IMG/VR virus record: IMGVR_UViG_3300042385_000144
Span: 1-31,486 of that record
Source of the DNA: a virus
Length of the DNA stretch: 31,486 nucleotides
Strand: one strand, 5' to 3'
A program made the translations under genes and the position numbers. Below are positions 558 to 30,258 of this stretch, one piece after another. Under the pieces are notes generated by a model. The model did not search any database, was not told where the DNA came from, and worked only from the letters and a program-made list of their open reading frames with translations. Each line of letters begins with the position of its first letter. Position 1 is the stretch's first letter.

Positions 558-825
558 TACCCATCAAATTAAATATATTTGGATCAAAGTAGAGCTTACC
601 ATGTGTACTGGTGCAATCTTGATCGCGGGAAACAACTCGAACATAATCATCAAAGAACTTAAGTCCTCGAAGGGCAATGATCAACATCTGTGCCAGACTG
701 ACCATGTTTGCGTTATAGACTACCCATGTCAGTTCTTCGTTGGGCATACTCAGAATAGTCTTAACGGTCTTTGCGCCATATCGCGAGATGTAGTTTTCCA
801 GTGGCTCCACTATAGGTACATTCAT
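544..825 (-). CDS. Hypothetical 93-aa protein
   Basis: Unknown function. The start chosen is the ATG at 825, because AAGGATATTATTG lies directly upstream, even though this makes the gene overlap the last 65 nt of the primase gene in another frame. The protein (MNVPIVEPLENYISRYGAKT...) is soluble. A segment near residue 40 (MVSLAQMLIIALRGL) is probably a buried helix rather than a membrane span. It is translationally linked to primase, which suggests a replication-associated accessory role, but no motif supports one. Confidence 0.65.
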   Translation of the reverse strand: MNVPIVEPLENYISRYGAKTVKTILSMPNEELTWVVYNANMVSLAQMLIIALRGLKFFDDYVRVVSRDQDCTSTHGKLYFDPNIFNLMGNGHG

Positions 826-1780
826 CAATAATATCCTTCACCTTATCAGTACTATAACCAGCCAGAACCATATCATTGATATCCTTCTGGTCTAACGTAG
901 TTGGCCAGATACACACACGGTATCCATTGTCTATGGCCTTCTCAATATGTTTTACAGTGTGTTTGTTCCTTGGTTCATTATCATATACTACAACAAATCT
1001 GTCTTTTTGTACATCTAATTGTTGCAGTGGTGTGATAAGATCTCCGCCGGCCGATGCGATACCATTAGGCAAGAATAGTGAATCCAGCGGTCCCTCTACT
1101 ACATATATATCCTTGCTGTCATCCATAGTATCTAGACCAAAGATCTTCGGTTGATCCTCGTTCAGCATAATGGTTATGTAGCGAATACCGGTCTTCTTGA
1201 ATGACCGGCCCTGAAAACCGAATAGGTTCTTGTCCTTATCCAGGAATGGAATGATCAGACGAGGTTCATCCTTGTCAAGATCGTCAAACTTATCAGGGAT
1301 CATAGTATTGACCCACGCCTTGAACTTCATGGCTAGGAATAGTTTGTAGTGGGTATCAGTAGGAATCAGTCGTTTGGCCACATACTCCTTGACAGGATGT
1401 TCAGCCCTGAGTTGTGATACCTTCTTGAGATCTTTCAGACCAGTATTCTTGACAAAGACAGGAGCCTTCATCTTATTGACAAACTCCTGCGTCTCATCCT
1501 TGTGACCGTTCTCTACCATCCTATCCTTAAGATACTCGGCATACAGAGTTGGGTCAAGTGTCTTGATAAACCATGGAAGGCCCATCGATGCATTACAGTT
1601 ATGACAGAAGAACTTTAGCGAACCCTTACGTGCATAGACGTACCCACGGGTCTTACGCTTATCCTTTTGGGAGTCACCACAGACTGGACACCTAAACTTG
1701 TAGGTGTTTGGATTGACACGTGAGAACAGTTCAAGCCTTGATGATAGTAGATTGATGTACTTGTGTTCTAACCAAAGCAT
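761..1780 (-). CDS. DNA primase, DnaG/T4 gp61-like
   Basis: Makes RNA primers for lagging-strand synthesis with the gp41-type helicase encoded at 21768-23180. The N-terminus has a zinc-ribbon pair, CPVC at residues 31-34 and CHNC at 59-62. The central part has a Toprim core: IYVVEGPLDSLF with Glu229, then FVVVYDNEP with Asp267, followed by DINDMV. The length of 339 aa fits phage gp61-type primases. The ATG at 1780 has GAGGAATAATAGTA upstream and an early-type promoter about 50 nt before it (1810-1837), so the gene probably starts a separate transcript. It lies about 20 kb from the helicase, unlike the adjacent 61/41 arrangement in T4. Confidence 0.93.
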   Translation of the reverse strand: MLWLEHKYINLLSSRLELFSRVNPNTYKFRCPVCGDSQKDKRKTRGYVYARKGSLKFFCHNCNASMGLPWFIKTLDPTLYAEYLKDRMVENGHKDETQEFVNKMKAPVFVKNTGLKDLKKVSQLRAEHPVKEYVAKRLIPTDTHYKLFLAMKFKAWVNTMIPDKFDDLDKDEPRLIIPFLDKDKNLFGFQGRSFKKTGIRYITIMLNEDQPKIFGLDTMDDSKDIYVVEGPLDSLFLPNGIASAGGDLITPLQQLDVQKDRFVVVYDNEPRNKHTVKHIEKAIDNGYRVCIWPTTLDQKDINDMVLAGYSTDKVKDIIDECTYSGATGKLHLAIWRKDR

Positions 1781-1809
1781 TACTATTATTCCTCACAACT
1801 GATATACTC

Positions 1810-1837
1810 ATTATACACAGTTATGGAATAATGTACA
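1810..1837 (-). promoter_or_regulatory. Early-type promoter before primase
   Basis: On the minus strand, TGTACA (1832-1837) is the -35 and TATAAT (1810-1815) the -10, separated by 16 nt. The -10 is a perfect sigma70 consensus. This is the best -10 of the TGTACA promoter family found in this window and sits in the only noncoding gap in this part, just upstream of primase. Confidence 0.7.
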
Positions 1838-1862
1838 TTAAATAATGCGGTTTCAGTAAATA

Positions 1863-2342
1863 TTAAATTGGAATAAATCTTATGGCAATAGTAATCAAAC
1901 CACCAACCACGGCAGATCCACCAACAACAGCCCACATCCACTTCTCCATGGTAGTAATACGGCCGGATAGTTTATTGTGTTGAGTAGTCGATTCTATACG
2001 CATCTCTTTGAGTTCGCGCATGATCTCATCATACTGCACATCGATTTTTTCTGACAACTCTTTTTCTCCAGATGAGATCCGTGCATGGATAGTTTGTATT
2101 TTGTCGTCAGTCTCGGCCCGTCTTTTTTCTATAAGGTCTACAGTTTGTTTTGTAATGATGTCATGTGTAGATAGTTTAGTTTCGTGTACAGCAAGAAGAC
2201 TTGATACGTTGTTAGAAATATCAGCCAGTTTATCGATCGTAGTATCCAGTCTATCTACAAGTAGACCTACCTTCGCCATATCTTGTTGGAGATACGACAC
2301 GTTATCGGCCAGCTTTTGTAGGTTTGGTTGAGTAACAGCCAC
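1863..2342 (-). CDS. Membrane-anchored coiled-coil protein (159 aa)
   Basis: A long heptad-rich helix (LQKLADNVSYLQQDM ... ISSGEKELSEKIDVQYDEIMRELKEM) is followed by one C-terminal membrane segment (WMWAVVGGSAVVGGLITIAI) and a short tail. The architecture recalls tail-anchored phage accessory proteins of lysis regions, but no family can be named. A longer frame exists upstream, but the start preferred is the GTG at 2342. It lies 4 nt past the stop of the 79-aa gene and has the same GGAATAAT ribosome site as its neighbours. It is the last gene of the lysis/membrane block. Confidence 0.75.
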   Translation of the reverse strand: MAVTQPNLQKLADNVSYLQQDMAKVGLLVDRLDTTIDKLADISNNVSSLLAVHETKLSTHDIITKQTVDLIEKRRAETDDKIQTIHARISSGEKELSEKIDVQYDEIMRELKEMRIESTTQHNKLSGRITTMEKWMWAVVGGSAVVGGLITIAIRFIPI

Positions 2343-2346
2343 GTTA

Positions 2347-2586
2347 TTATTCCGAATCTGTCGGCGGTTTTGGTGCAAACTTCTCTGCACCTGTGATGCC
2401 AAGACTTGCAATAACAATATACATTACAGCATCGAACATAAACTGATCGACTGTATAATCCCAAAATAGATTAGCCATGTAACCGACACACACAAGAACC
2501 ATAGCAACTGCAGCAATCCATCTCTTTGAGGATGGGTTGCCTTTACCGTCGGCCATCATACCTTTTACGTAACCGGTGATGTCCAT
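2347..2586 (-). CDS. Small two-helix membrane protein, holin-like
   Basis: 79 aa with two hydrophobic segments, WIAAVAMVLVCVGYMANLFW at about residues 23-42 and FDAVMYIVIASLGITGA at about 50-66, and a charged, proline-rich C-terminus. Size, two-span topology and position next to the spanins fit a holin or anti-holin, the protein that permeabilises the inner membrane at lysis time. This is inference from topology, since no specific holin family is recognised. The start at 2586 has CTAAGGAATAAACA upstream. Confidence 0.72.
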   Translation of the reverse strand: MDITGYVKGMMADGKGNPSSKRWIAAVAMVLVCVGYMANLFWDYTVDQFMFDAVMYIVIASLGITGAEKFAPKPPTDSE

Positions 2587-2596
2587 TGTTTATTCC

Positions 2597-3049
2597 TTAG
2601 AATGGTCCGTGATCTTCGTCCGAATCATGATATTTATCAATCGCCGCCATCATCTTAATTTCATTCTCAGTTTCAATAGTTTCTGCTTGAGCATTGATTA
2701 CATGAGCTTCAGCCAACACTTTATGGTCTGTCTTACCCAGTTCCTGAACCTTGACATTAGGATCGAACTCTGCAGTCTTCATTCCCATCATCGTTGCGAA
2801 TGCACCAACAAAGGCGCCGACAATCATTGAGAATGCAGGGCCGATGATCTTGAAGATCTCGTTGTTGTCAATAACATGGTTAGGTATAAACAAACCGATC
2901 ATCATAACAAGAACAACCGAGATCATGATCAGCCCAAGAACAAATGAGATTAGCTTCATCATGCTAAGCTGCACCTTGCCCTTAGCAATTTCAAGCTGCT
3001 CAAGAGAAGTTACAGGGATAGGATCGATCAATAGTGACAGAACATTCAT
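2597..3049 (-). CDS. Membrane protein, holin-region (150 aa)
   Basis: Two strong membrane segments (LISFVLGLIMISVVLVMMIGLFI at about residues 33-55 and IIGPAFSMIVGAFVGAFATMMG at about 68-89) lie between an amphipathic N-terminus and a charged acidic C-terminal tail ending in YHDSDEDHGPF. The start overlaps the stop of the EF-hand gene as ATGA. It could be a holin, an anti-holin or a superinfection-related membrane protein, and topology alone cannot choose. Confidence 0.75.
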   Translation of the reverse strand: MNVLSLLIDPIPVTSLEQLEIAKGKVQLSMMKLISFVLGLIMISVVLVMMIGLFIPNHVIDNNEIFKIIGPAFSMIVGAFVGAFATMMGMKTAEFDPNVKVQELGKTDHKVLAEAHVINAQAETIETENEIKMMAAIDKYHDSDEDHGPF

Positions 3050-3240
3050 TTTGGTTTTCTGCCTCTTTTAACAACTTTTTTAATCTTGTCGGCAGCAACT
3101 ACAACCTCGGTGACTACTTCTGTTGTCTTCTTGTACTCTGTCTCAGCAACTGCCTTAGCAAATTCCATATCTTCTATGGTTAGTTTACCATCTTTATTCA
3201 GATCAGCAAAACCTAACAATTTTTTAATCTTTTCCCACAT
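3046..3240 (-). CDS. Small EF-hand protein (64 aa)
   Basis: The first 25 residues carry a canonical 12-residue EF-hand loop: D13-L-N15-K-D17-G-K19-L-T-I-E-D24. The rest is a lysine/valine-rich helix ending KKVVKRGRKPK. A calcium-binding role is likely, because position 12 is Asp, which some EF-hands use. The ATG at 3240 is preferred because TGGAG lies 6 nt before it. The in-frame GTG four codons earlier overlaps that ribosome site. The gene sits between two small lysis-block genes, and one isolated EF-hand suggests a partner or dimer. Confidence 0.75.
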   Translation of the reverse strand: MWEKIKKLLGFADLNKDGKLTIEDMEFAKAVAETEYKKTTEVVTEVVVAADKIKKVVKRGRKPK

Positions 3241-3251
3241 AAATATCTCCA

Positions 3252-3476
3252 CTATTTTTTTGTTACATTTGCAAGTTTTCTTGCTACACTTAAAGCTAAA
3301 CCCTGATCCTTAGATGCATTGAGCAAACCTAATGCTGCAATCAACATCAGTATAGTCTTAGAATCTTCTTTACCACTCACACGATTTAATGAATTGGCAA
3401 TGATATTAACAAGATTATCTTTTGACGGAGTTTCTTCCTGGTCATCTACCTTGTCGAATTCTTTAAACTTCTTCAT
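3252..3476 (-). CDS. Hypothetical 74-aa protein with KFKEF N-terminus
   Basis: Starts MKKFKEFDKVDDQEE and continues with a helical region (NIIANSLNRVSG ... TILMLIAALGLLNASKDQGLAL). No family is recognised. Its ATG overlaps the stop of the Rz-like gene (ATGA), so it is cotranslated with the spanin. The opening FKEF segment resembles the start of several late proteins here (see findings), but the following residues do not give a clear I/L-x-E site. Confidence 0.65.
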   Translation of the reverse strand: MKKFKEFDKVDDQEETPSKDNLVNIIANSLNRVSGKEDSKTILMLIAALGLLNASKDQGLALSVARKLANVTKK

Positions 3477-3991
3477 TTCTTTTTCTTTTCTTCCTCAGCC
3501 ATCTTATCTACAGCCGCCTTGTTTTCAATAATCCACTTTTGTAGTTCAATCAGTTGGATTTGATTTCTTTGGCAGATGGCGTAGTTAGAGATGACGGAGA
3601 TAAGGGCTGTATTGTCTTTAATTCCAGAGGAGGACGCATCAGAAGCTCTGGAGGCGTCGGCATCACCGGATGTGGCACTAATGTCGTGCGTGTACACCCA
3701 ACCGTTGCTAAGATCAGACTGAGCAGGAACGCTTTTTGCAGCAATGTCACGGTATACATATTCCTTTTCCCTAATCGTATTTGTTCTGTCAACGTATTCA
3801 GTTATTACTTTATTACTTATCTCGGCATTCTTCTTCTCGAGCCCAGCAATCTGTTTGCTCTTCTCTGCAGAGAATTTAGCAAGTTCAGCTTCAGCATGTA
3901 CAGATCCCTTCATGTAACCATAGAAGAATACTCCAGCAATTAGTGCTACTAATGCGAGTAACTTATATGGCAAAGGAATCATGTTAAACAT
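3473..3991 (-). CDS. Rz-like inner-membrane spanin subunit (i-spanin)
   Basis: 172 aa: a short N-terminus, one membrane segment (KLLALVALIAGVFFYGYMKG, about residues 10-29), then a long periplasmic helical domain with coiled-coil character. It ends in AICQRNQIQLIELQKWI and a lysine-rich tail. A C-terminal C-x-x-N-x-x-Q-L-x-x-L-Q-x-W pattern is typical of Rz-type proteins. The call is strengthened by a complete Rz1-like lipoprotein gene nested inside it in another frame. Together they would fuse inner and outer membranes at the last step of lysis. The start is uncertain: ATG at 3991, with another at 3982. A longer frame exists but would overlap the upstream gene. Confidence 0.85.
   Translation of the reverse strand: MFNMIPLPYKLLALVALIAGVFFYGYMKGSVHAEAELAKFSAEKSKQIAGLEKKNAEISNKVITEYVDRTNTIREKEYVYRDIAAKSVPAQSDLSNGWVYTHDISATSGDADASRASDASSSGIKDNTALISVISNYAICQRNQIQLIELQKWIIENKAAVDKMAEEEKKKK
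3550..3759 (-). CDS. Rz1-like outer-membrane lipoprotein spanin (o-spanin), nested in Rz
   Basis: A 69-aa frame lies wholly inside the Rz-like gene, in a different phase. It has a lipoprotein signal (LLSLILATVGC, modified Cys22) followed by a short proline-rich mature part (VPHPVMPTPPELLMRPPLE), the hallmark of Rz1 proteins. AAAAGGAAT precedes the ATG at 3759. Mature Rz1 is anchored in the outer membrane and binds the periplasmic end of Rz. The embedded layout is the lambda arrangement, whereas T4 itself has separate overlapping genes (PseT.2/PseT.3). Confidence 0.85.
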   Translation of the reverse strand: MYTVTLLQKAFLLSLILATVGCTRTTLVPHPVMPTPPELLMRPPLELKTIQPLSPSSLTTPSAKEIKSN

Positions 3992-3992
3992 G

Positions 3993-4505
3993 TTATTTGC
4001 CGGCGAATGTCTTGAATGAAGGCATCTTACGTTTTGCAGGTTTAGCAAATAGTGGTTTGTTCTTTGGATCTGCTACATTAGCAGCGACGTTCACTGGACC
4101 GGTTCCCATCGCCATATCTTCATTCTTGGTAGCCCAAGCATATTTACCAGCTTTAGCTTCTCTTTGTGTAGGATATACGTCAGAGTAATCGTGTCTATCA
4201 GTAGTACTGCGAGATATCCAACCTTTAGTATGTTTAACGATTTCCCGCTTACCATCATTACTTGTATATCCAGAGCCGTGTTTATCTTTTACCCACTTTG
4301 TTTCTTCCTTCATCTCACCCTGCATATAGTTAGCAGAAGTTGAGATGTAGTCCTCGGCTAGCGTGATCTTTGACTGTACCCATTCAGGAATATTTGTGTC
4401 GCGCTCGAGCATATCATGGATACGCTGCGCGTTGGCAATAATAGACTTGAGTTGTGACATAGCCATGTCACCTTCATAGTCATACTCTTGTTTTTCTTTA
4501 GCCAT
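3993..4505 (-). CDS. Conserved myovirus protein (170 aa), probably virion-associated
   Basis: The N-terminal two fifths (EYDYEGDMAMSQLKSI, then NIPEWVQSKITLAEDYIS and ANYMQGEM) is a domain I recognise from many marine T4-like phage proteins, of unknown function. The C-terminal half is basic and repeat-poor, ending in KMPSFKTFAGK, which is the FK-x-F segment seen at the termini of other late proteins here. The start codon overlaps the stop of the 129-aa gene (TAATG). Expression with tail or head genes makes a structural or packaged role likely. Confidence 0.75.
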   Translation of the reverse strand: MAKEKQEYDYEGDMAMSQLKSIIANAQRIHDMLERDTNIPEWVQSKITLAEDYISTSANYMQGEMKEETKWVKDKHGSGYTSNDGKREIVKHTKGWISRSTTDRHDYSDVYPTQREAKAGKYAWATKNEDMAMGTGPVNVAANVADPKNKPLFAKPAKRKMPSFKTFAGK

Positions 4506-4894
4506 TAAATCTTCCTTAGAATCTGTACAATATTATCATCCATAGGGATATCAGAACTAATTATTGTTTTGTTCTCGACACCGACGCCAGATACTTTATC
4601 AGGCAAGAATCCCAACAAAAGAATGAACGGCTTCAATAAATGAAGATGGCCGTTCAACTTAAAGAATAACATTTTTGTAGTGGCTGCACCAAATACATTA
4701 TACAAGATAATGAGATGATTCAGAATCAATCTCTCTTTAAGTTCACCAGATTCCTCATAACGATTAAATAGTCTTTTGATATACTTAAACCGTGATAGAT
4801 CTTCGTAAAACTCTAAAGTATCAAAACATTGTGGGTTATCATAATTTTTCGCAGCGTACAACACGAAGTTGGACTCATCAAGTTTATCAATCAT
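4505..4894 (-). CDS. Conserved myovirus protein (129 aa)
   Basis: A compact soluble protein (MIDKLDESNFVLYAAKNYDN, DTLEFYEDLSRFKYIKRLF, LILNHLIILYNVFG). This pattern is common in T4-like marine phages, where it lies among structural genes, but no function is established that I know of. It is coupled on both sides: ATGA with the 83-aa gene and TAATG with the 170-aa gene. Confidence 0.8.
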   Translation of the reverse strand: MIDKLDESNFVLYAAKNYDNPQCFDTLEFYEDLSRFKYIKRLFNRYEESGELKERLILNHLIILYNVFGAATTKMLFFKLNGHLHLLKPFILLLGFLPDKVSGVGVENKTIISSDIPMDDNIVQILRKI

Positions 4895-5142
4895 GCAATT
4901 CTTACTTTGACAACCCCCGCAGCAGTATAATATAGTTGTCCTAATGCAACACCAGCTGTATTTGCTGCTGGATCATCTGCATACGGTCCCTGTACAATAG
5001 CTTTACGAAGTGTGGATAATGTACCGGACTTGGTTGTGTTAGCGGAGACGTCTTCGATAATGAAGAGGTCCCCGCTAGCGATCGACGTGTTGGCCGTGCC
5101 AATGGATGTTAATTCTGTAATCTTTTTAGCACGGTCAGACAT
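4891..5142 (-). CDS. Small virion-type protein (83 aa)
   Basis: Starts MSDRAKKITELTSIGT and has DLFIIEDVSANTTKSGTLSTL, a short beta-rich module that recurs at the head of tail or fibre proteins in many phages. Alone at 83 aa, it may be a fibre-attachment or decoration protein. AAGGAATAATTA precedes its ATG, 10 nt after the 288-aa gene ends. Function is inferred only from composition and context. Confidence 0.7.
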   Translation of the reverse strand: MSDRAKKITELTSIGTANTSIASGDLFIIEDVSANTTKSGTLSTLRKAIVQGPYADDPAANTAGVALGQLYYTAAGVVKVRIA

Positions 5143-5152
5143 TAATTATTCC

Positions 5153-6019
5153 TTATGCGTCATGAAGGATTGCGTCATCAGATCCGTCATTCGAGAAGTT
5201 GCCACCGAATGCAACCAATGTCTCGTACTGAACACGACCTGCACGACCACCTTCACCTACTGTACGAAGTACCCAACCGGTATGAGCAGCACCCTTTGTA
5301 TAACCGCGGCCTGTAAGAACAGCAGTTGCGGTTGCAGTTTCACCCGTAAGTGAGTGACCGGTTTCTGTCAGACCCTTGGTAAGATCGATTGTTGGAGCAT
5401 TAATTCCAGTTGCAAGTGTAACGGCTATTGTGTTCGATGTCTTGATGACATAAGTCGTACCCGATGTCAGGTTTGTCAGAGCAGTATTACCAGCAGCAAC
5501 AGTGTAAGTTACCTTATCACCTGGAAGGAAGAAGCTATTTGCAGTTGTGATTGCAATAGCGTCTGTTGCGTTTGTGACAGCCGAGTTAGCATTGAATGCC
5601 TGTGCAGCAGGTGCAGCAATTGTAATCGCAGGAATTGATGTATAACCGCGGATTAATGTGCCGTTTGCTGTTAGTGCAGTAATGCGACCGCCCGATGCAG
5701 TTGAGTTAGCGGCCAGTGTGTTTGCACCGCCTGTTGTATTAGCAACTGTAACTGCTGCGTTAGCATTGTAACCAGAACCTGGATTTGTAATAATATACTG
5801 TGCTACAGCCGTATTACCAATCTGAACTGAAATTTCATTGATATCTAGACCGAACTGACCAACTGCTTTGTTCATGGCAACGCCGTTGTTGTTCCATGCA
5901 TCAACTGTTGTATTGCCGAATAGTGCTGTTTGATTTACTGTGTTTGATGGTAGATTTACCTGCGTAGTCGCCCATAGGACGGAATTCGCAGCATCATCTG
6001 TATTACCCCATTGTGCCAT
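5153..6019 (-). CDS. Virion structural protein (288 aa)
   Basis: Low-complexity, Ala/Thr/Asn-rich beta protein with an IITNPGSGYNANAAVTV module, typical of phage surface proteins. It ends with HTGWVLRTVGEGGRAGRVQYETLVA, a C-terminal block I recognise from T4-like marine phage virion proteins. It has no Cys and no signal peptide. A perfect late promoter (TATAAATA) lies 26 nt upstream of its ATG, consistent with high late expression. Whether it belongs to tail, neck or head cannot be decided. Confidence 0.8.
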   Translation of the reverse strand: MAQWGNTDDAANSVLWATTQVNLPSNTVNQTALFGNTTVDAWNNNGVAMNKAVGQFGLDINEISVQIGNTAVAQYIITNPGSGYNANAAVTVANTTGGANTLAANSTASGGRITALTANGTLIRGYTSIPAITIAAPAAQAFNANSAVTNATDAIAITTANSFFLPGDKVTYTVAAGNTALTNLTSGTTYVIKTSNTIAVTLATGINAPTIDLTKGLTETGHSLTGETATATAVLTGRGYTKGAAHTGWVLRTVGEGGRAGRVQYETLVAFGGNFSNDGSDDAILHDA

Positions 6020-6044
6020 TAGTCTTCTCCTGTAAACTTTCTTT

Positions 6045-6052
6045 TATTTATA
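6045..6052 (-). promoter_or_regulatory. T4-type late promoter TATAAATA
   Basis: TATAAATA on the minus strand in the 38-nt gap between the 543-aa and 288-aa genes. It is identical to the T4 late consensus recognised by the gp55 sigma factor. It would drive the 288-aa virion gene and the following lysis block. Confidence 0.75.
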
Positions 6053-6057
6053 ATTGA

Positions 6058-7689
6058 TTAGAGTTCGCTCTTAAGATTAGCGTGTGAATGACTAATCTTC
6101 TTTTGGAATGCTTCTTTTTCATCTGGCTTCATGCCGGCATACTTAGTCAAAAGCTTTGCTGCATGTTCGCCAGGGACATGATGTGAATCACCATGAGTGA
6201 AGTGGACTGTTTCACCACCACGCATTGATAACTTAGCACGTTGAAGCTGCTGCATGACATGCTGATTGGCTTCAATCTTTGGTTCAGGGATGACACCATT
6301 TCTTTGAAGTGCTTCAATCTTCTTCATATGCTCAGGATTATCATGCATCAACTTTTCTTTTGTTCTTGGGTTGATTGTGAAATCCTTGCCACCGGCCTTC
6401 TTAGGACGGCCACGTGCTTCATCCAGAGTATCAATATTCAGCGAATCAACGAAGTCTTGTTCTTCCTTGGTCAGCTTATTAACTGCTCTCGAGATGCCCT
6501 TTTCGCGCTTGCCCATGTCCTTGAAGTTCTTGCTTGACTTTTCGTCAGCAGCAATCTTCAGACCAGCAGTAACACCTTGACTGCCCATTTTTGTGGCAGC
6601 CTTATTGATATAACGACCCATTGTTCCCTTTGAAAGTTCATCAATCTGTTCGGCTTCTTCATTGGTAGCTGCTACCTTAGGTGCTTCCATTCCATATTTG
6701 CCAGGATTCAATTTTTTAGTTGCAAGCTTTCTACCAGCATCCCGGTTCTTGTCACCTTTAAAAGTGCCACGCTGTTGATATGTGTCTAAGATTCCCCCGG
6801 GCTTCTTTGAGAGCTCATCAATCTGATCAGCTTCTTCTTTAACAGTAAATGACTTACCGATGATCTTTCCAGCTCTTTCGGCTCCCTTCATTTTATTACC
6901 TAGGAGTCTACCAGCTTCCTTTCGATCACCAGGATTATACCGAGTAGCTCTAGCTGAACGTTCTACAGCTGTTTCTCTAGGTGCAAACGATTTACTTAGG
7001 TAATCCATTGCTTTCTTTGCAGATGTTTCATCAAGATCTTCAGCTTCTTCTTTAATATTAATTCTTTTATTCTTACCATGATGCCATCTAATGCCAGATT
7101 TCCATTCATCAGCCGAAATACCCTTTGGGTGCTTTTCACTTTTCTTTGAACCGTGCATCTGAGAATGGGTATACCAACCATCATCCTCTTCATCGAGCAT
7201 ATTCTTGCCCAACTTAGTACGTACTGCTTTAGCCAACTTTGATGCATCGACACCAAAATCATTGGCAGCCGAACGAACGTGACTCTTACGAATGTTATCA
7301 CCATAACGCTTTTGAAGATGGGCAACGATCTTTGCAGTTTCATCGATCTGTTCAGGTGTATCGCACTGCCCGCAGCATTCAGGAGTTCCGCAATTATTAT
7401 GCTCAGTTTCTTCATTGGCTTTATCACTCATTGCCTTCTTCGCAAGATGTTTGGCAACATTTTTAATAATATTTCCATATTTGTCTTTGCGAACACCTGG
7501 CTTATCGTATGGACCTTCAAAAGGAACATCATTGTGGCTAGATTCCTTAACGCCGTTAGGTTCTTTCTTTTCCTTGGCTTCACGCTCACGCTTCAGTGTG
7601 TCGCCTAATGCAGTTGCCTCACCAAGAACACCTGAAACGGCATTCAGAAGACTGGCTGTAAATTGTGTTGATAGTTTCTTAGTAAACAT
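6058..7689 (-). CDS. Large internal-type protein with repeated IDE/LDE sites
   Basis: 543 aa, highly charged, with no globular enzyme motif. Short modules are separated by linkers of the form EEA-D/E-Q-I-D-E-LSK. I/L-D-E sites occur at about residues 115-117 (QIDE), 165-167 (LDE), 219-221 (LDE), 290-292, 349-351 and 422-424. There is a Cys cluster at 100-109 (C-GTPE-CC-GQ-C). The C-terminal module (GGETVHFTHGDSHHVPGEHA) is common in marine phage proteins. The N-terminal helix ends in VLGE. The pattern suggests a head-core polyprotein cut by a prohead protease (inference). AGGAGCAGAAGA precedes the start. It lies between the 195-aa gene and a late promoter. Confidence 0.8.
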   Translation of the reverse strand: MFTKKLSTQFTASLLNAVSGVLGEATALGDTLKREREAKEKKEPNGVKESSHNDVPFEGPYDKPGVRKDKYGNIIKNVAKHLAKKAMSDKANEETEHNNCGTPECCGQCDTPEQIDETAKIVAHLQKRYGDNIRKSHVRSAANDFGVDASKLAKAVRTKLGKNMLDEEDDGWYTHSQMHGSKKSEKHPKGISADEWKSGIRWHHGKNKRINIKEEAEDLDETSAKKAMDYLSKSFAPRETAVERSARATRYNPGDRKEAGRLLGNKMKGAERAGKIIGKSFTVKEEADQIDELSKKPGGILDTYQQRGTFKGDKNRDAGRKLATKKLNPGKYGMEAPKVAATNEEAEQIDELSKGTMGRYINKAATKMGSQGVTAGLKIAADEKSSKNFKDMGKREKGISRAVNKLTKEEQDFVDSLNIDTLDEARGRPKKAGGKDFTINPRTKEKLMHDNPEHMKKIEALQRNGVIPEPKIEANQHVMQQLQRAKLSMRGGETVHFTHGDSHHVPGEHAAKLLTKYAGMKPDEKEAFQKKISHSHANLKSEL

Positions 7690-7704
7690 TCTTCTGCTCC
7701 TATT

Positions 7705-8292
7705 TCAGTCGTTATCGATAAGTTTAAGTTTACGTTGTGCTGCTTTTGATCTTTTGATCAAATAGTTCTTTACATTATCTACATCGCGATCGCCCTGTGG
7801 TCCTGCAATCGGATCTGGTTTATTGCCAGATGGAGGACTGCGGAATCGCGGATCATCTGCTGGATGGTAGTCAGGACCAACTTCCTTTGTCTCATCCTTA
7901 AAATACTTTTTCAGATCATTATAATGGTCGTTTACAATCTTATCTATCTTAACAGATTGGTCCATACTGGCGGCTAGTGGTTTAAGTTTACCAACCAATT
8001 CCTCGGCTTTATCTAGATCAGCCTGTGATGCAGATTCTGCGGCAATGATATCTTTATGCAGATCAAATAGTTTATCAAGATGAATAGCAGTTTGTTCGGC
8101 CGAGTTTGTATCTGTTTCTTTTGGTAGATCGGCGAATATAATCTGAGCATCAGGTGACATATCAAAGGTCTTAGTTGTATAAGACCCGACAGCAATCTGA
8201 TCATTCTGGTCGGATTCCTTGCCAAGCAGATGCTTAGGCTGGAGTCCTTCCAGAACGTCTCTGATCTTAGATTCTACCGATCTGTAGTTCAT
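7705..8292 (-). CDS. Hypothetical virion-region protein (195 aa)
   Basis: Soluble, acidic to neutral and mostly helical. The N-terminus is MNYRSVESKIRDVLEGL. A central helical pair (LDKLFDLHKDIIAAE, then LDKAEELVGKLKPLAAS) is followed by a proline-rich linker (RFRSPPSGNKPDPIAGP) and a basic tail. I do not recognise a family. The start overlaps the Dps-like stop (ATGA). A structural or internal role is likely from context. Confidence 0.7.
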   Translation of the reverse strand: MNYRSVESKIRDVLEGLQPKHLLGKESDQNDQIAVGSYTTKTFDMSPDAQIIFADLPKETDTNSAEQTAIHLDKLFDLHKDIIAAESASQADLDKAEELVGKLKPLAASMDQSVKIDKIVNDHYNDLKKYFKDETKEVGPDYHPADDPRFRSPPSGNKPDPIAGPQGDRDVDNVKNYLIKRSKAAQRKLKLIDND

Positions 8293-8723
8293 TTCAGTGT
8301 TGACCTAAGCATCCAGTCATGCTTCTTGTGTGCATCAAGACGATCTTCTAAGAAGTTGACGAGGCCATTCTGTTCATATGTATCAGCCATGTCACGTGCC
8401 ATCTTAAGAGATGCATATACCTTCATGTTATCGGCATAAAGTGTAGCAACCATCTGCGATGCACCAATTACAAGAACTTCATCTTCAATGTTAGATAGTT
8501 CAGCAAATCTACGAAATGCTCCAGGAGCATATGCACCAGCCGCACGAATCTCTTCAGCAAACCGATCGATTGCACCACCGACCTCTTCATAAATGTTACC
8601 GAAAAACTCGTGGTACATAGGGAACATAGGCCCCTCTACATTCCAGTGATAGTTCTGTGCCTTCACATAAAAGGCATAGGTATCTGCAAATGCTACCTTA
8701 AGTGGGTTTGTAATCTCTTCCAT
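8289..8723 (-). CDS. Dps-like ferritin (DNA protection during starvation family)
   Basis: 144 aa, the size of a minimal Dps four-helix bundle. The ferroxidase signature is intact: H26 (NYHWNV), H38 (MYHEFF), D53 and E57 (GAIDRFAEE), with the 12/15/4 spacing of E. coli Dps. Dps dodecamers oxidise Fe(II) with hydrogen peroxide and can bind DNA. The start at 8723 is chosen because its ATG overlaps the previous stop (TAATG). It is embedded among head-type genes rather than early genes, so it could protect or compact phage DNA, or be packaged. The N-terminal basic DNA-binding tail of E. coli Dps is missing. Confidence 0.88.
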   Translation of the reverse strand: MEEITNPLKVAFADTYAFYVKAQNYHWNVEGPMFPMYHEFFGNIYEEVGGAIDRFAEEIRAAGAYAPGAFRRFAELSNIEDEVLVIGASQMVATLYADNMKVYASLKMARDMADTYEQNGLVNFLEDRLDAHKKHDWMLRSTLK

Positions 8724-24302: not shown

Positions 24303-25400
24303 TTATTTAAAAAGATCACATTTTTCCCAAGGCAGATAGGATTTGCCAAAGTGACCGTAATTAGTAGTAGATGTATAGATTGGTCTAAATAAGTCAAAAT
24401 GTTTAATAATTCCCTTTGGAGTTAGATCAACATTTTTGATAATCCATTCTGTTAATTCCCTGCTGTGCCTATCGCTCTCGACATATACAGACATAGGTTG
24501 CGCAATCCCGATTGCATAACTTAATTGTACTGTTGCCCAATTTGCTTTATTACTTGCTACGATATTTTTAGCAAGATACCGAGCCATATACGCAGCCGAT
24601 CTATCTACTTTAGTAGGATCCTTGCCGCTAAACGCACCTCCACCATGAGGTGCATAACCGCCATATGTATCAACAATGATCTTACGGCCTGTCAGTCCGG
24701 TATCTCCATCTGGTCCACCAATTACAAACCGCCCGGTTGGATTGATTAAAAACTTAGTTTTATCGTCAATCAAATCTTTTGGAAACAACTCTCTAATAAG
24801 ATTTTCAATTGCGAACCGTAATTCGTTAAGTTGTACATCACGGTGATGTTGAGTAGAACAAACAATCTTGTCAATTCTTTTGACTGTAGCATCATTATTA
24901 TATTCTATAGTGACTTGACTTTTTGCGTCAGGCTCAAGCCAATCAATTGTTCCTAATTTTCGAGCATTTGATAATGCATCAACAATTTTATGACTATAAT
25001 AAAGTGCAGCTGGCATATAGTTGTCAGTTTCGTTACATGCATATCCAAACATCAGTCCTTGATCGCCAGCACCAAAATTATCAGTTCCTAGTGCAATATC
25101 AGGACTTTGACCGTGCATTAAGTTAGTAATTTTTACATTTCGCCAATCAAATCCTTCTTGTTCATAACCAATATTTTTGATAACTTCGCGTACAACATTA
25201 TCTACATCTAAAGAATTTAGTTCTCCTTTATACTCGCCAGCAACAATCACCTGGTTAGTAGTAACTAATGTTTCACATGCACACCTATATGAAGTGTCTT
25301 GATTACTCATGAGTAAATCTAATATGCTATCGCTAATAAGATCTGCAACTTTATCCGGGTGACCTTCTGACACGGATTCACTAGTAAATAAATATGACAT
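24303..25400 (-). CDS. metK: S-adenosylmethionine synthetase
   Basis: 365 aa against about 384 in E. coli. Active-site blocks are present: EGHPDK (H14, D16, K17), CETLVTTNQ (E43), GPDGDTGLTGRK, and the P-loop-like GGGAFSGKDPTKVDRS. It forms SAM from ATP and methionine. Full length and intact motifs argue for an active enzyme. Possible uses are feeding phage DNA methylation or replacing SAM destroyed by other phages. Base composition is lower in GC than flanking replication genes (about 33% versus 48% in sampled lines), which suggests recent acquisition. It is inserted between the 76-aa gene and uvsX. Confidence 0.95.
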   Translation of the reverse strand: MSYLFTSESVSEGHPDKVADLISDSILDLLMSNQDTSYRCACETLVTTNQVIVAGEYKGELNSLDVDNVVREVIKNIGYEQEGFDWRNVKITNLMHGQSPDIALGTDNFGAGDQGLMFGYACNETDNYMPAALYYSHKIVDALSNARKLGTIDWLEPDAKSQVTIEYNNDATVKRIDKIVCSTQHHRDVQLNELRFAIENLIRELFPKDLIDDKTKFLINPTGRFVIGGPDGDTGLTGRKIIVDTYGGYAPHGGGAFSGKDPTKVDRSAAYMARYLAKNIVASNKANWATVQLSYAIGIAQPMSVYVESDRHSRELTEWIIKNVDLTPKGIIKHFDLFRPIYTSTTNYGHFGKSYLPWEKCDLFK

Positions 25401-29383: not shown

Positions 29384-29387
29384 GTTG

Positions 29388-29417
29388 AAGGGGGAGTTTC
29401 GGCTCCCCCTTCTTTTT
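29388..29417 (+). terminator. Rho-independent terminator after endolysin
   Basis: A perfect 9-bp stem AAGGGGGAG/CTCCCCCTT with loop TTTCGG, then CTTTTT on the plus strand. It separates the convergent endolysin and Hsp20 genes. The minus strand has no T-tract, so it acts mainly on the plus strand. Confidence 0.88.
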
Positions 29418-29419
29418 AG

Positions 29420-29932
29420 TTACTTGTCCTTGCGTTCTGCTAAAAATTCAGCAGTCGAAGGTGTAGACACATCATCTTCTACCTCATCAATTTTGATCTT
29501 CTTTGGCTTCTTATGTTCTGGGATAATTGATTCCAGAGCAATCTTGAGAATGCCATTGAGCAGCGAGGCGCCGCAGATCTCTACGTTATCAGCAAGATTG
29601 AACGTACGCGTGAATGGACGCATTGCAAGGCCCTGATATAGCATAGCTGGCCAGGTCCATTCGCCATCCGAATCCTGCTGAGCAGGCTCACCCTGGTGGA
29701 CATTGCTGCCCTTGATGATGAGCTTGTCATCAACCAGTTCGATCTCAAGATCCTGCTTACCAAAACCAGCCACAGCCATTTCGATAACGTACTTGTTCTC
29801 ATCAATCTTCTTGATATTGTACGGAGGATAGTTTTGAGCAATCTTTAGTGACTGCTCGGTTGCTTCGGCGAACCTCTTCATGATAGGATCAAATCCTACA
29901 AAGAAACGGTCGAAAGGCTTTGTATCAAACAT
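29420..29932 (-). CDS. Small heat-shock protein Hsp20
   Basis: 170 aa with an alpha-crystallin domain: YPPYNIKKIDENKYVIEMAV, GFGKQDLEIELVDDKLIIKG, then FTRTFNLADNVEICGASLLNGILKIAL and an IIPEH tail. ATP-independent holdase. Many T4-like marine phages encode one, presumably to help capsid folding. The ATG at 29932 is preferred over 29938 because GGGAG is 8 nt away. A late promoter upstream at 30251 would cover it and the EF-hand gene. Confidence 0.92.
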   Translation of the reverse strand: MFDTKPFDRFFVGFDPIMKRFAEATEQSLKIAQNYPPYNIKKIDENKYVIEMAVAGFGKQDLEIELVDDKLIIKGSNVHQGEPAQQDSDGEWTWPAMLYQGLAMRPFTRTFNLADNVEICGASLLNGILKIALESIIPEHKKPKKIKIDEVEDDVSTPSTAEFLAERKDK

Positions 29933-29943
29933 ATTCATTCTCC

Positions 29944-30195
29944 CTACTTGCAGCGACCAAGCAGATCACGGTTTGTGAAATACTCAGATGGAGTCAGAAC
30001 CAGGTCATGATTCTTGTCTGCATACTTGAACATCTTAGTATCGGTCTTGCACTCGGCAAGACGAAGTTCTTCAAGTGTGAGGGTTGCATTGCTGTCAGCA
30101 TCGAGACGGTCGAAGAGATCTACCTTCCACGAGGTAGCTGCTGCTGGCGTTGTCATGAGAGTTGCGGCCACGAGACCGAGAATTACACTTTTCAT
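29944..30195 (-). CDS. Secreted EF-hand protein (83 aa)
   Basis: A cleavable signal peptide (VILGLVAATLMTTPAAA, cut near residue 20) is followed by two EF-hand loops: D32-A-D34-S-N36-A-T38 ... E43, and D60-K-N62-H-D64 ... E71. Two Cys (49, 82) could form a disulfide in the periplasm. It resembles bacterial periplasmic EF-hand proteins. Export to the periplasm of a calcium-binding phage protein is unusual. Roles in lysis or superinfection are possible but unproven. It lies directly upstream of hsp20 and after a late promoter. Confidence 0.85.
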   Translation of the reverse strand: MKSVILGLVAATLMTTPAAATSWKVDLFDRLDADSNATLTLEELRLAECKTDTKMFKYADKNHDLVLTPSEYFTNRDLLGRCK

Positions 30196-30250
30196 ATATG
30201 CTCCTATTAAGCGAGTTTAGATTTGGCCACCCATTAGGCGTGACCGGTAG

Positions 30251-30258
30251 TATTTATA
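30251..30258 (-). promoter_or_regulatory. T4-type late promoter TATAAATA
   Basis: TATAAATA on the minus strand in the 107-nt gap before the EF-hand gene (ATG at 30195). No long gene fits this gap. It also holds a short frame ending ...SSTDLRERIKKAK (about 30268-30315), discussed as a possible gene relic. Confidence 0.7.

Follow-up and report, generated by a model that had tools for sequence, protein, structure and literature searches.

The leaders closest in layout to the one described here are the ROSE-like RNA thermometers of Pseudomonas ibpA genes which, according to the available portion of PMC3669281, are 61-62 nt long, form two hairpins and place a U(U/C)GCU sequence opposite the Shine-Dalgarno (SD) sequence. 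The IbpA protein of E. coli acts through the 5' UTR of its own mRNA as a repressor, as stated in the accessible part of PMC10474464. The phage RNA thermometer named in the accessible sections of PMC4166951 and PMC8917201 is lambda cIII, and in the accessible text of PMC11936213 the term thermometer occurs in the reference list only. A thermometer of a phage hsp20 gene was not found among the papers listed in literature searches, as judged from titles and the beginnings of abstracts. A phage small heat shock protein has been described, namely Hsp20 of cyanophage S-ShM2 (PMC5028025, PMC3827213), the gene of which has the same leader as reported here; in term searches of the main texts of these two papers, thermometer, untranslated and ROSE were all absent. 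On the protein side, CaBP of Caulobacter vibrioides, as described in the accessible part of PMC13171946, has a Sec signal peptide and EF-hands, is periplasmic and is linked to stress.

The analysis covered an IMG/VR virus contig, 31,486 bases long, hereafter the window. UvsX, gp41 and primase, identified by eye, are T4-like replication proteins, and the DNA polymerase reaches no more than about 50% identity with those of cyanophages. In a near-identity search, matches to cultured phages covered only 3% of the length of the final 5.5 kb. Between UvsX and the DNA polymerase lies a gene (24303-25400, minus strand) which by eye encodes an S-adenosylmethionine synthetase (MetK); it matches phrog_1569, where the function is unknown, and had no match in the examined part of the contig L006. 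An Rz-like spanin is encoded at 3473-4048 on the minus strand (best match phrog_4952; phrog_8821, E 4.8e-7; signal peptide motif), with a small Rz1-like frame nested in it at 3550-3792, minus strand (phrog_3198, E 0.0018). The Rz-like spanin suggests a Gram-negative host for this phage. Beside the spanin-like genes, at 3046-3252 on the minus strand, lies the gene of a protein of 68 aa; this protein has a single canonical EF-hand-like loop, DLNKDGKLTIED, shows no signal peptide on inspection and matches the Pfam EF-hand below threshold.

The gene under study occupies 29944-30195 on the minus strand (ORF limits exact, 83 aa, stop included) and is predicted to encode an exported EF-hand protein, hereafter EF. 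Its N-terminus, MKSVILGLVAATLMTTPAAA|T, shows a positive residue, a hydrophobic stretch (mean Kyte-Doolittle value of residues 3-16, 1.89) and an A-x-A site. A signal peptide is therefore predicted at residues 1-20 (30136-30195, minus strand) with an A-A-A cleavage site, a call made by inspection and hydropathy only, with Ala20 invariant in 15/15 aligned members of the family. EF-hand loop 1, DADSNATLTLEE, spans residues 32-43 (30067-30102, minus strand) and loop 2, DKNHDLVLTPSE, residues 60-71 (29983-30018, minus strand). When the mature sequence was shuffled 200,000 times, two relaxed-pattern loops arose in 13 cases. Ligand positions 1, 3, 5, 9 and 12 are all kept in the window protein. Gly is the usual residue at position 6 of an EF-hand loop; as this position is Ala in loop 1 and Leu in loop 2, both loops fail the strict EF-hand pattern. 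In Pfam, EF-hand_1 scored best (E=1.3e-4), its 21.7 bits lying under the cut-off of 25.4, and the best E value in a PDB sequence search was 0.061. AlphaFold2 modelled the protein with modest confidence (mean pLDDT 65, pTM 0.49) and with helices flanking both loops, and in a Foldseek search with this model the majority of the 50 matches listed were EF-hand proteins, all with E>0.1.

An initial search yielded five viral loci with two distinct EF proteins, between which the late promoter and the leader were conserved. With the query rebuilt from diverged members, the family grew to 25 viral loci out of 104 pattern-matching stretches. We aligned 15 members (alignment A9), the other 14 being 29-93% identical to the window protein. 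In both loops of all 15, position 1 is D, position 3 D/N, position 5 D/N/S and position 12 E, while position 6 varies and position 9 of loop 1 is Ala or Val, not T/S/N, in 5/15. Cys49 (30049-30051, minus strand) is present in 15/15 and Cys82 (29950-29952, minus strand) is aligned in 14/15, the Cys of the member L218 being shifted in the alignment; the two are candidate disulfide partners. All 15 matched EF-hand_1 at E<=0.01, and among four relatives scored singly against the 25.4-bit cut-off, L217 (27.4) and L218 (36.3) were above it and L136 (24.9) and L202 (23.4) below. By the Nei-Gojobori method, dN/dS was 0.098 between the window gene and that of L006, its nearest distinct relative, and 0.157-0.358 in seven further pairs; two of the ten pairs, drawn from five members, were saturated.

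No relative was found when four family members were searched by tblastn against 50,697 phage records, nor in plasmids at the sensitivity used. One peptide pattern gave 51 matching stretches in bacterial and archaeal genomes, none of them an EF relative, a pattern search that distant homologues may escape. The A9 profile gave 0/9 matches in nine cultured phages, in a run without a positive control, and an EF-family match was not found in S-ShM2. The sequence-only reading had taken this for a phage gene, rare in phages, behind a late promoter, encoding an exported protein with two EF-hand loops and two cysteines. The gene is real (exact ORF, family dN/dS of 0.098-0.358), its rarity (empty tblastn search), the late-promoter motif and, as a probability, the export are borne out, and the ligand positions of the loops are not degenerate in the relatives. 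The anatomy of the protein is thus well supported; from its sequence features, EF is probably exported and probably binds Ca2+, and its molecular function is inferred. The altered position 6 and the sub-threshold Pfam score of the window member would also fit a passenger gene that has kept its fold but binds little Ca2+ here, with lowered affinity. Against such a passenger stand the dN/dS of 0.098 and the retained ligand positions, and we consider it unlikely.

As compared by description, EF resembles the C. vibrioides CaBP in its predicted Sec signal peptide, EF-hands, predicted periplasmic location and proposed stress link, and differs from it in that CaBP has 133 aa and three EF-hands, is bacterial and is paired with an ECF sigma factor (PMC13171946, accessible part). 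EF is also like lanmodulin in being a small EF-hand protein, with weak matches to it (PDB, E 0.57; Foldseek, E 0.81). The hallmark of lanmodulin is a proline at loop position 2. This proline was absent in 15/15 EF members, and a relation to lanmodulin was rejected. T4 RI-type lysis regulators have a signal-anchor-release domain and bind holin; the predicted EF signal peptide is, by inspection, of the cleavable type.

Upstream of EF lies a T4-type late promoter, TATAAATA, at 30251-30258 on the minus strand; six such sites occur in the window as against 1.5 ± 1.3 in simulated sequence. It is followed by a two-hairpin leader RNA (30194-30247, minus strand), which is the sole match in the window, at E<=10, to R1, a covariance model built from 50 aligned leaders (E 6.3e-17); the same leader type (as L087) is in the R1 training set. 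Hairpin I (30225-30245, minus strand) consists of a 6-bp stem with a bulged G at 30239 and the tip CC-UAAU-GG. The proposed hairpin II (30201-30215, minus strand), C-UCGCU-UAAU-AGGA-G, would join a ROSE-like anti-SD motif to the SD sequence, although ViennaRNA favours a shifted pairing there.

The structure was examined in an alignment, A8, of 50 leaders less than 86% identical to one another, out of 108, the 58 more similar ones having been dropped. In hairpin I, 91.8% of cells were paired and changes on both sides were seen in 6/8 pairs; the share of paired cells was partly selected, because a stem of at least 4 bp had been required in collecting the A8 leaders. Over the whole leader structure, 116 cells were changed on both sides, as compared to 37.9 ± 5.4 in shuffles. 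The covariation score was 0.472 against 0.147 in shuffles, and fell to at most 0.114 when partners were slid by 1-3 columns. Two of the five covariation measures lay within the shuffles: the level seen for pairs with double changes was reached in 165 of 500 shuffles, and that for further pair types in 86. The bulged G was present in 50/50 aligned leaders, some of which had been found by a pattern requiring that G. A DNA pattern free of any stem requirement gave 108 loci, all 108 with a stem of 5-9 bp, in 51 distinct arm pairs. Hairpin I is the strongly covarying part of the leader. In hairpin II, 84.8% of cells were paired and double changes were absent, which is expected where the SD is invariant. 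In 17 of the 50 A8 rows one hairpin II pair fails, partly through loop-length misalignment. The presence of U(C/U)GCU in all 50 rows is no test, because the motif had served to collect them.

With the Hsp20 protein as the query, 80 loci were obtained, of which 73 have motif and hairpin, and 5 the motif only, no more than 450 nt before the Hsp20 match; in all, U(C/U)GCU preceded AGGA in 78/80, the other two having too little upstream sequence. Collection by the SD motif alone gave 122 distinct matches, classed via sequence motifs and not Pfam, of which 100 preceded hsp20, 8 EF, 5 a phasin-like gene and 9 other genes (one of these nine, L065, actually precedes a phasin-like gene). Hairpin I was present in 108/113 of those preceding hsp20, EF or a phasin-like gene (the 108 from which A8 was drawn) and in 0/9 of the others; L089, an hsp20-class match without the hairpin, is a chance match at an EF/hsp20 junction. 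The strict DNA pattern, the one free of a stem requirement, matched 108 viral stretches, 100 before hsp20 and 8 before EF, with 28 of the loci assigned to hsp20 by eye (MAVAGF replacing LAVAGF) and two, L161 and L173, truncated. It gave zero matches in the bacterial and archaeal genome collection.

R1 was found directly before EF in 13 of the 14 loci in which hsp20 follows EF, the fourteenth, L219, starting inside the gene; several of these 13 leaders are identical, and four (L087, L092, L213, L217) belong to the R1 training set. It was found before EF in none of the other 11 EF loci (ten EF-phasin loci and L218). From 492 records with an hsp20 match we chose 14 cultured phages for having hsp20. 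In whole-genome searches R1 lay immediately upstream of hsp20 in 12 of them, i.e. S-ShM2, Melnitz-3 and ten cyanophages (E 2.4e-9 to 6.2e-4), and the pelagiphages HTVC008M and HTVC103P gave no significant match at hsp20. By eye, U(C/U)GCU preceded the SD of hsp20 in 14/14, including both pelagiphages. T4, phiM12 and Aeh1, which are not known to have hsp20, gave no R1 match at E<=10.

The phage leaders share with the Pseudomonas ibpA thermometers the two-hairpin layout and the U(C/U)GCU opposite the SD (PMC3669281, available portion). ROSE elements are placed in the 5' UTR of small heat shock genes; the 108 pattern loci all lie before hsp20 or EF, and hsp20 comes after EF in the 14 EF-hsp20 loci. 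The ROSE motif U(U/C)GCU, placed where it could pair with the SD, was present in the 78/80 Hsp20-fetched loci and, by eye, in the 14/14 cultured phages. Unlike the Pseudomonas thermometers, the phage leader has a late promoter, a bulged G, usually a CC-N4-GG tip and no Rfam match, and may precede an EF-hand or phasin-like gene. Rfam 15, ROSE included, gave nothing above the gathering score at 11 leaders, and the leader of L044 showed only chance-level overlaps of 12.6 and 13.1 bits. With the ViennaRNA energy model, which has no non-canonical pairs, the SD of three EF leaders was about 40% unpaired (75% in L028) throughout 5-50 °C, without melting, and in five hsp20 leaders the unpaired share rose weakly over the same range, from 3-24% to 22-36%. 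Because there is no Rfam match and little or no predicted melting, we term these leaders ROSE-like in layout and not members of ROSE.

The same data bear on whether the leader is a thermometer at all. It could be an autoregulatory or mRNA-stabilising element. Hairpin I, being close to the 5' end, would then shield the late mRNA, or it would bind phage Hsp20, which would keep its own operon repressed until titrated away by aggregates. Such self-repression is known for IbpA of E. coli, through the 5' UTR (PMC10474464, accessible part), and both the covariation shown for hairpin I, with the bulged G in 50/50 (some selected for G), and the lack of in silico melting in the EF leaders fit it. Stabilisation alone, however, needs no U(C/U)GCU, and yet the motif is found in 78/80 loci and 14/14 cultured phages. 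We regard a leader of this kind as plausible, though clearly short of probable.

Downstream, the gene for an Hsp20 small heat shock protein (29420-29938, minus strand; PF00011, E 1.2e-15; phrog_432, E 1e-35) begins 5 nt past the EF stop, and in the ten EF-hsp20 loci examined the distance from EF stop to hsp20 start was 5-15 nt. A second ROSE-like element at this junction was sought by folding three loci (z -0.07 to -1.72) and was rejected. Over the 25 loci, the gene after EF is hsp20 in 14, phasin-like in 10 and other in one; Hsp20 was identified by Pfam in four loci only (the window, L015, L217 and L203). The naming of the phasin-like genes is weak, Phasin_2 reaching E=6e-5 and 23.6 bits (cut-off 24.9) for the gene of L202, the remainder being named by likeness to that gene, and the gene of L058 having no Pfam match.

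In eight relatives with the same flanks (L012-L019), EF is absent and a deaminase gene directly precedes hsp20 in 8/8; in one of these, L015, the deaminase gene (PF00383, E 1.9e-22) is followed in turn by late-promoter-like sequence, hairpin, SD motif and hsp20. In close relatives without EF the late-promoter-like sequence, TATAAATA in some and TGATAAATAA in others, lies within the last codons of the deaminase gene. Because related phages have the leader directly before hsp20, EF occupies a slot between leader and hsp20. In L006 (9527-9970) the 3' end of the deaminase gene (PF00383; codons for LINKPVTPNG) contains both the late promoter and hairpin I, and at about 30230-30258 (minus strand) of the window promoter and hairpin I are kept while the deaminase gene is absent there. 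In L058, L059, L068, L072, L083 and L086, small phasin-like genes fill the slot between leader and hsp20. In L093, L202 and L204-L211, the gene after EF is phasin-like, and EF itself is preceded by another late-type promoter, GCATAAATA, and by a simple hairpin that lacks U(C/U)GCU. In the phage contig L046, 23 tRNA matches are densely clustered around hsp20 (798-8383).

The remaining locus, L218, is a 250-kb viral contig in which EF lies between cytochrome c and a plastocyanin/azurin-family gene. At 2500-3746 of L218 cytochrome c, the distant EF-hand gene and the plastocyanin/azurin-family gene stand in a row, with a ferredoxin-like gene behind, seen by eye; these are possibly phage electron-transfer genes, or the contig is a misassigned one of the host.

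A small, predicted exported accessory protein in a variable slot, missing from the same-flank relatives (L012-L019, 8/8), might act on the host surface or in the periplasm, blocking superinfection or altering a host envelope protein. Late expression and stress-gene neighbours are atypical of exclusion genes and no target is known, and we hold such a role to be improbable.

The gene neighbourhood bears also on the role near lysis suggested by the sequence-only reading, whereby EF would sequester Ca2+ to weaken the outer membrane, or would time lysis. An M15/GH19 endolysin gene, convergent with the EF-hsp20 operon, adjoins it in the window; with the late promoter and the Gram-negative host suggested by the spanin at 3473-4048, it would suit such a role. 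An intrinsic-terminator-like hairpin (29387-29412, plus strand) lies between the operon and the endolysin gene, four such sites occurring in the region as compared to 2.8 ± 1.7 expected. Of the 80 hsp20 loci, 32 have such an endolysin gene downstream of hsp20, 6 with EF and 26 without; because these 26 have the same arrangement, the endolysin is tied to hsp20 and not to EF. Moreover, EF is followed by hsp20 or a phasin-like gene in 24/25 loci, the leader that precedes EF in the EF-hsp20 group is that of hsp20, the spanin genes are elsewhere in the window, and at most two Ca2+ per protein would count for little in a periplasm open to the medium. On neighbourhood and stoichiometry, Ca2+ sequestration for lysis was rejected, and a lysis function in general appears very unlikely. 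An exported Ca2+ protein that is made late and coupled to stress fits this neighbourhood better than a lysis factor does.

We propose, tentatively and as a reading a little short of probable, that EF binds Ca2+, is exported, is made late and in a stress-coupled manner, and is expressed together with the phage chaperone from a leader-gated operon. EF and hsp20 would form a two-gene late operon, EF first, the order read from the sequence being late-promoter motif, covarying hairpin I, U(C/U)GCU able to pair with the SD, EF and hsp20. The leader would limit translation until hairpin II opens, via heat or via titration of a repressor such as Hsp20, and the small gap between the genes may couple translation of hsp20 to that of EF. 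Export of EF would go through Sec and leave a mature protein of about 63 residues, which would bind one or two Ca2+ as it folds and be closed by one Cys49-Cys82 disulfide. On the envelope side it might act as a Ca2+-stabilised partner or sensor that keeps the infected cell productive under stress, Hsp20 meanwhile acting in the cytoplasm. Counted against this proposal are the 10/25 EF loci that precede a phasin-like gene without this leader, the weak or absent melting in ViennaRNA, the lack of an Rfam match and the atypical position 6 of the window loops.

More broadly, T4-like phages, from marine cyanophages to the uncultured members of this clade, may share an undescribed family of leaders of late mRNAs that sense heat or protein aggregation and gate hsp20, with an exported Ca2+ protein inserted in some of them so that the same signal releases both; at this breadth the proposal is possible but rather doubtful. 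If true, one signal would free both the chaperone in the cytoplasm and the Ca2+ protein in the periplasm. The results place an unknown phage protein in a testable context. The strongly covarying RNA element before hsp20 in cultured cyanophages offers a direct test ground for temperature control of a phage gene. A leader common to chaperone, EF-hand and phasin-like genes would show one regulatory slot reused for accessory genes.
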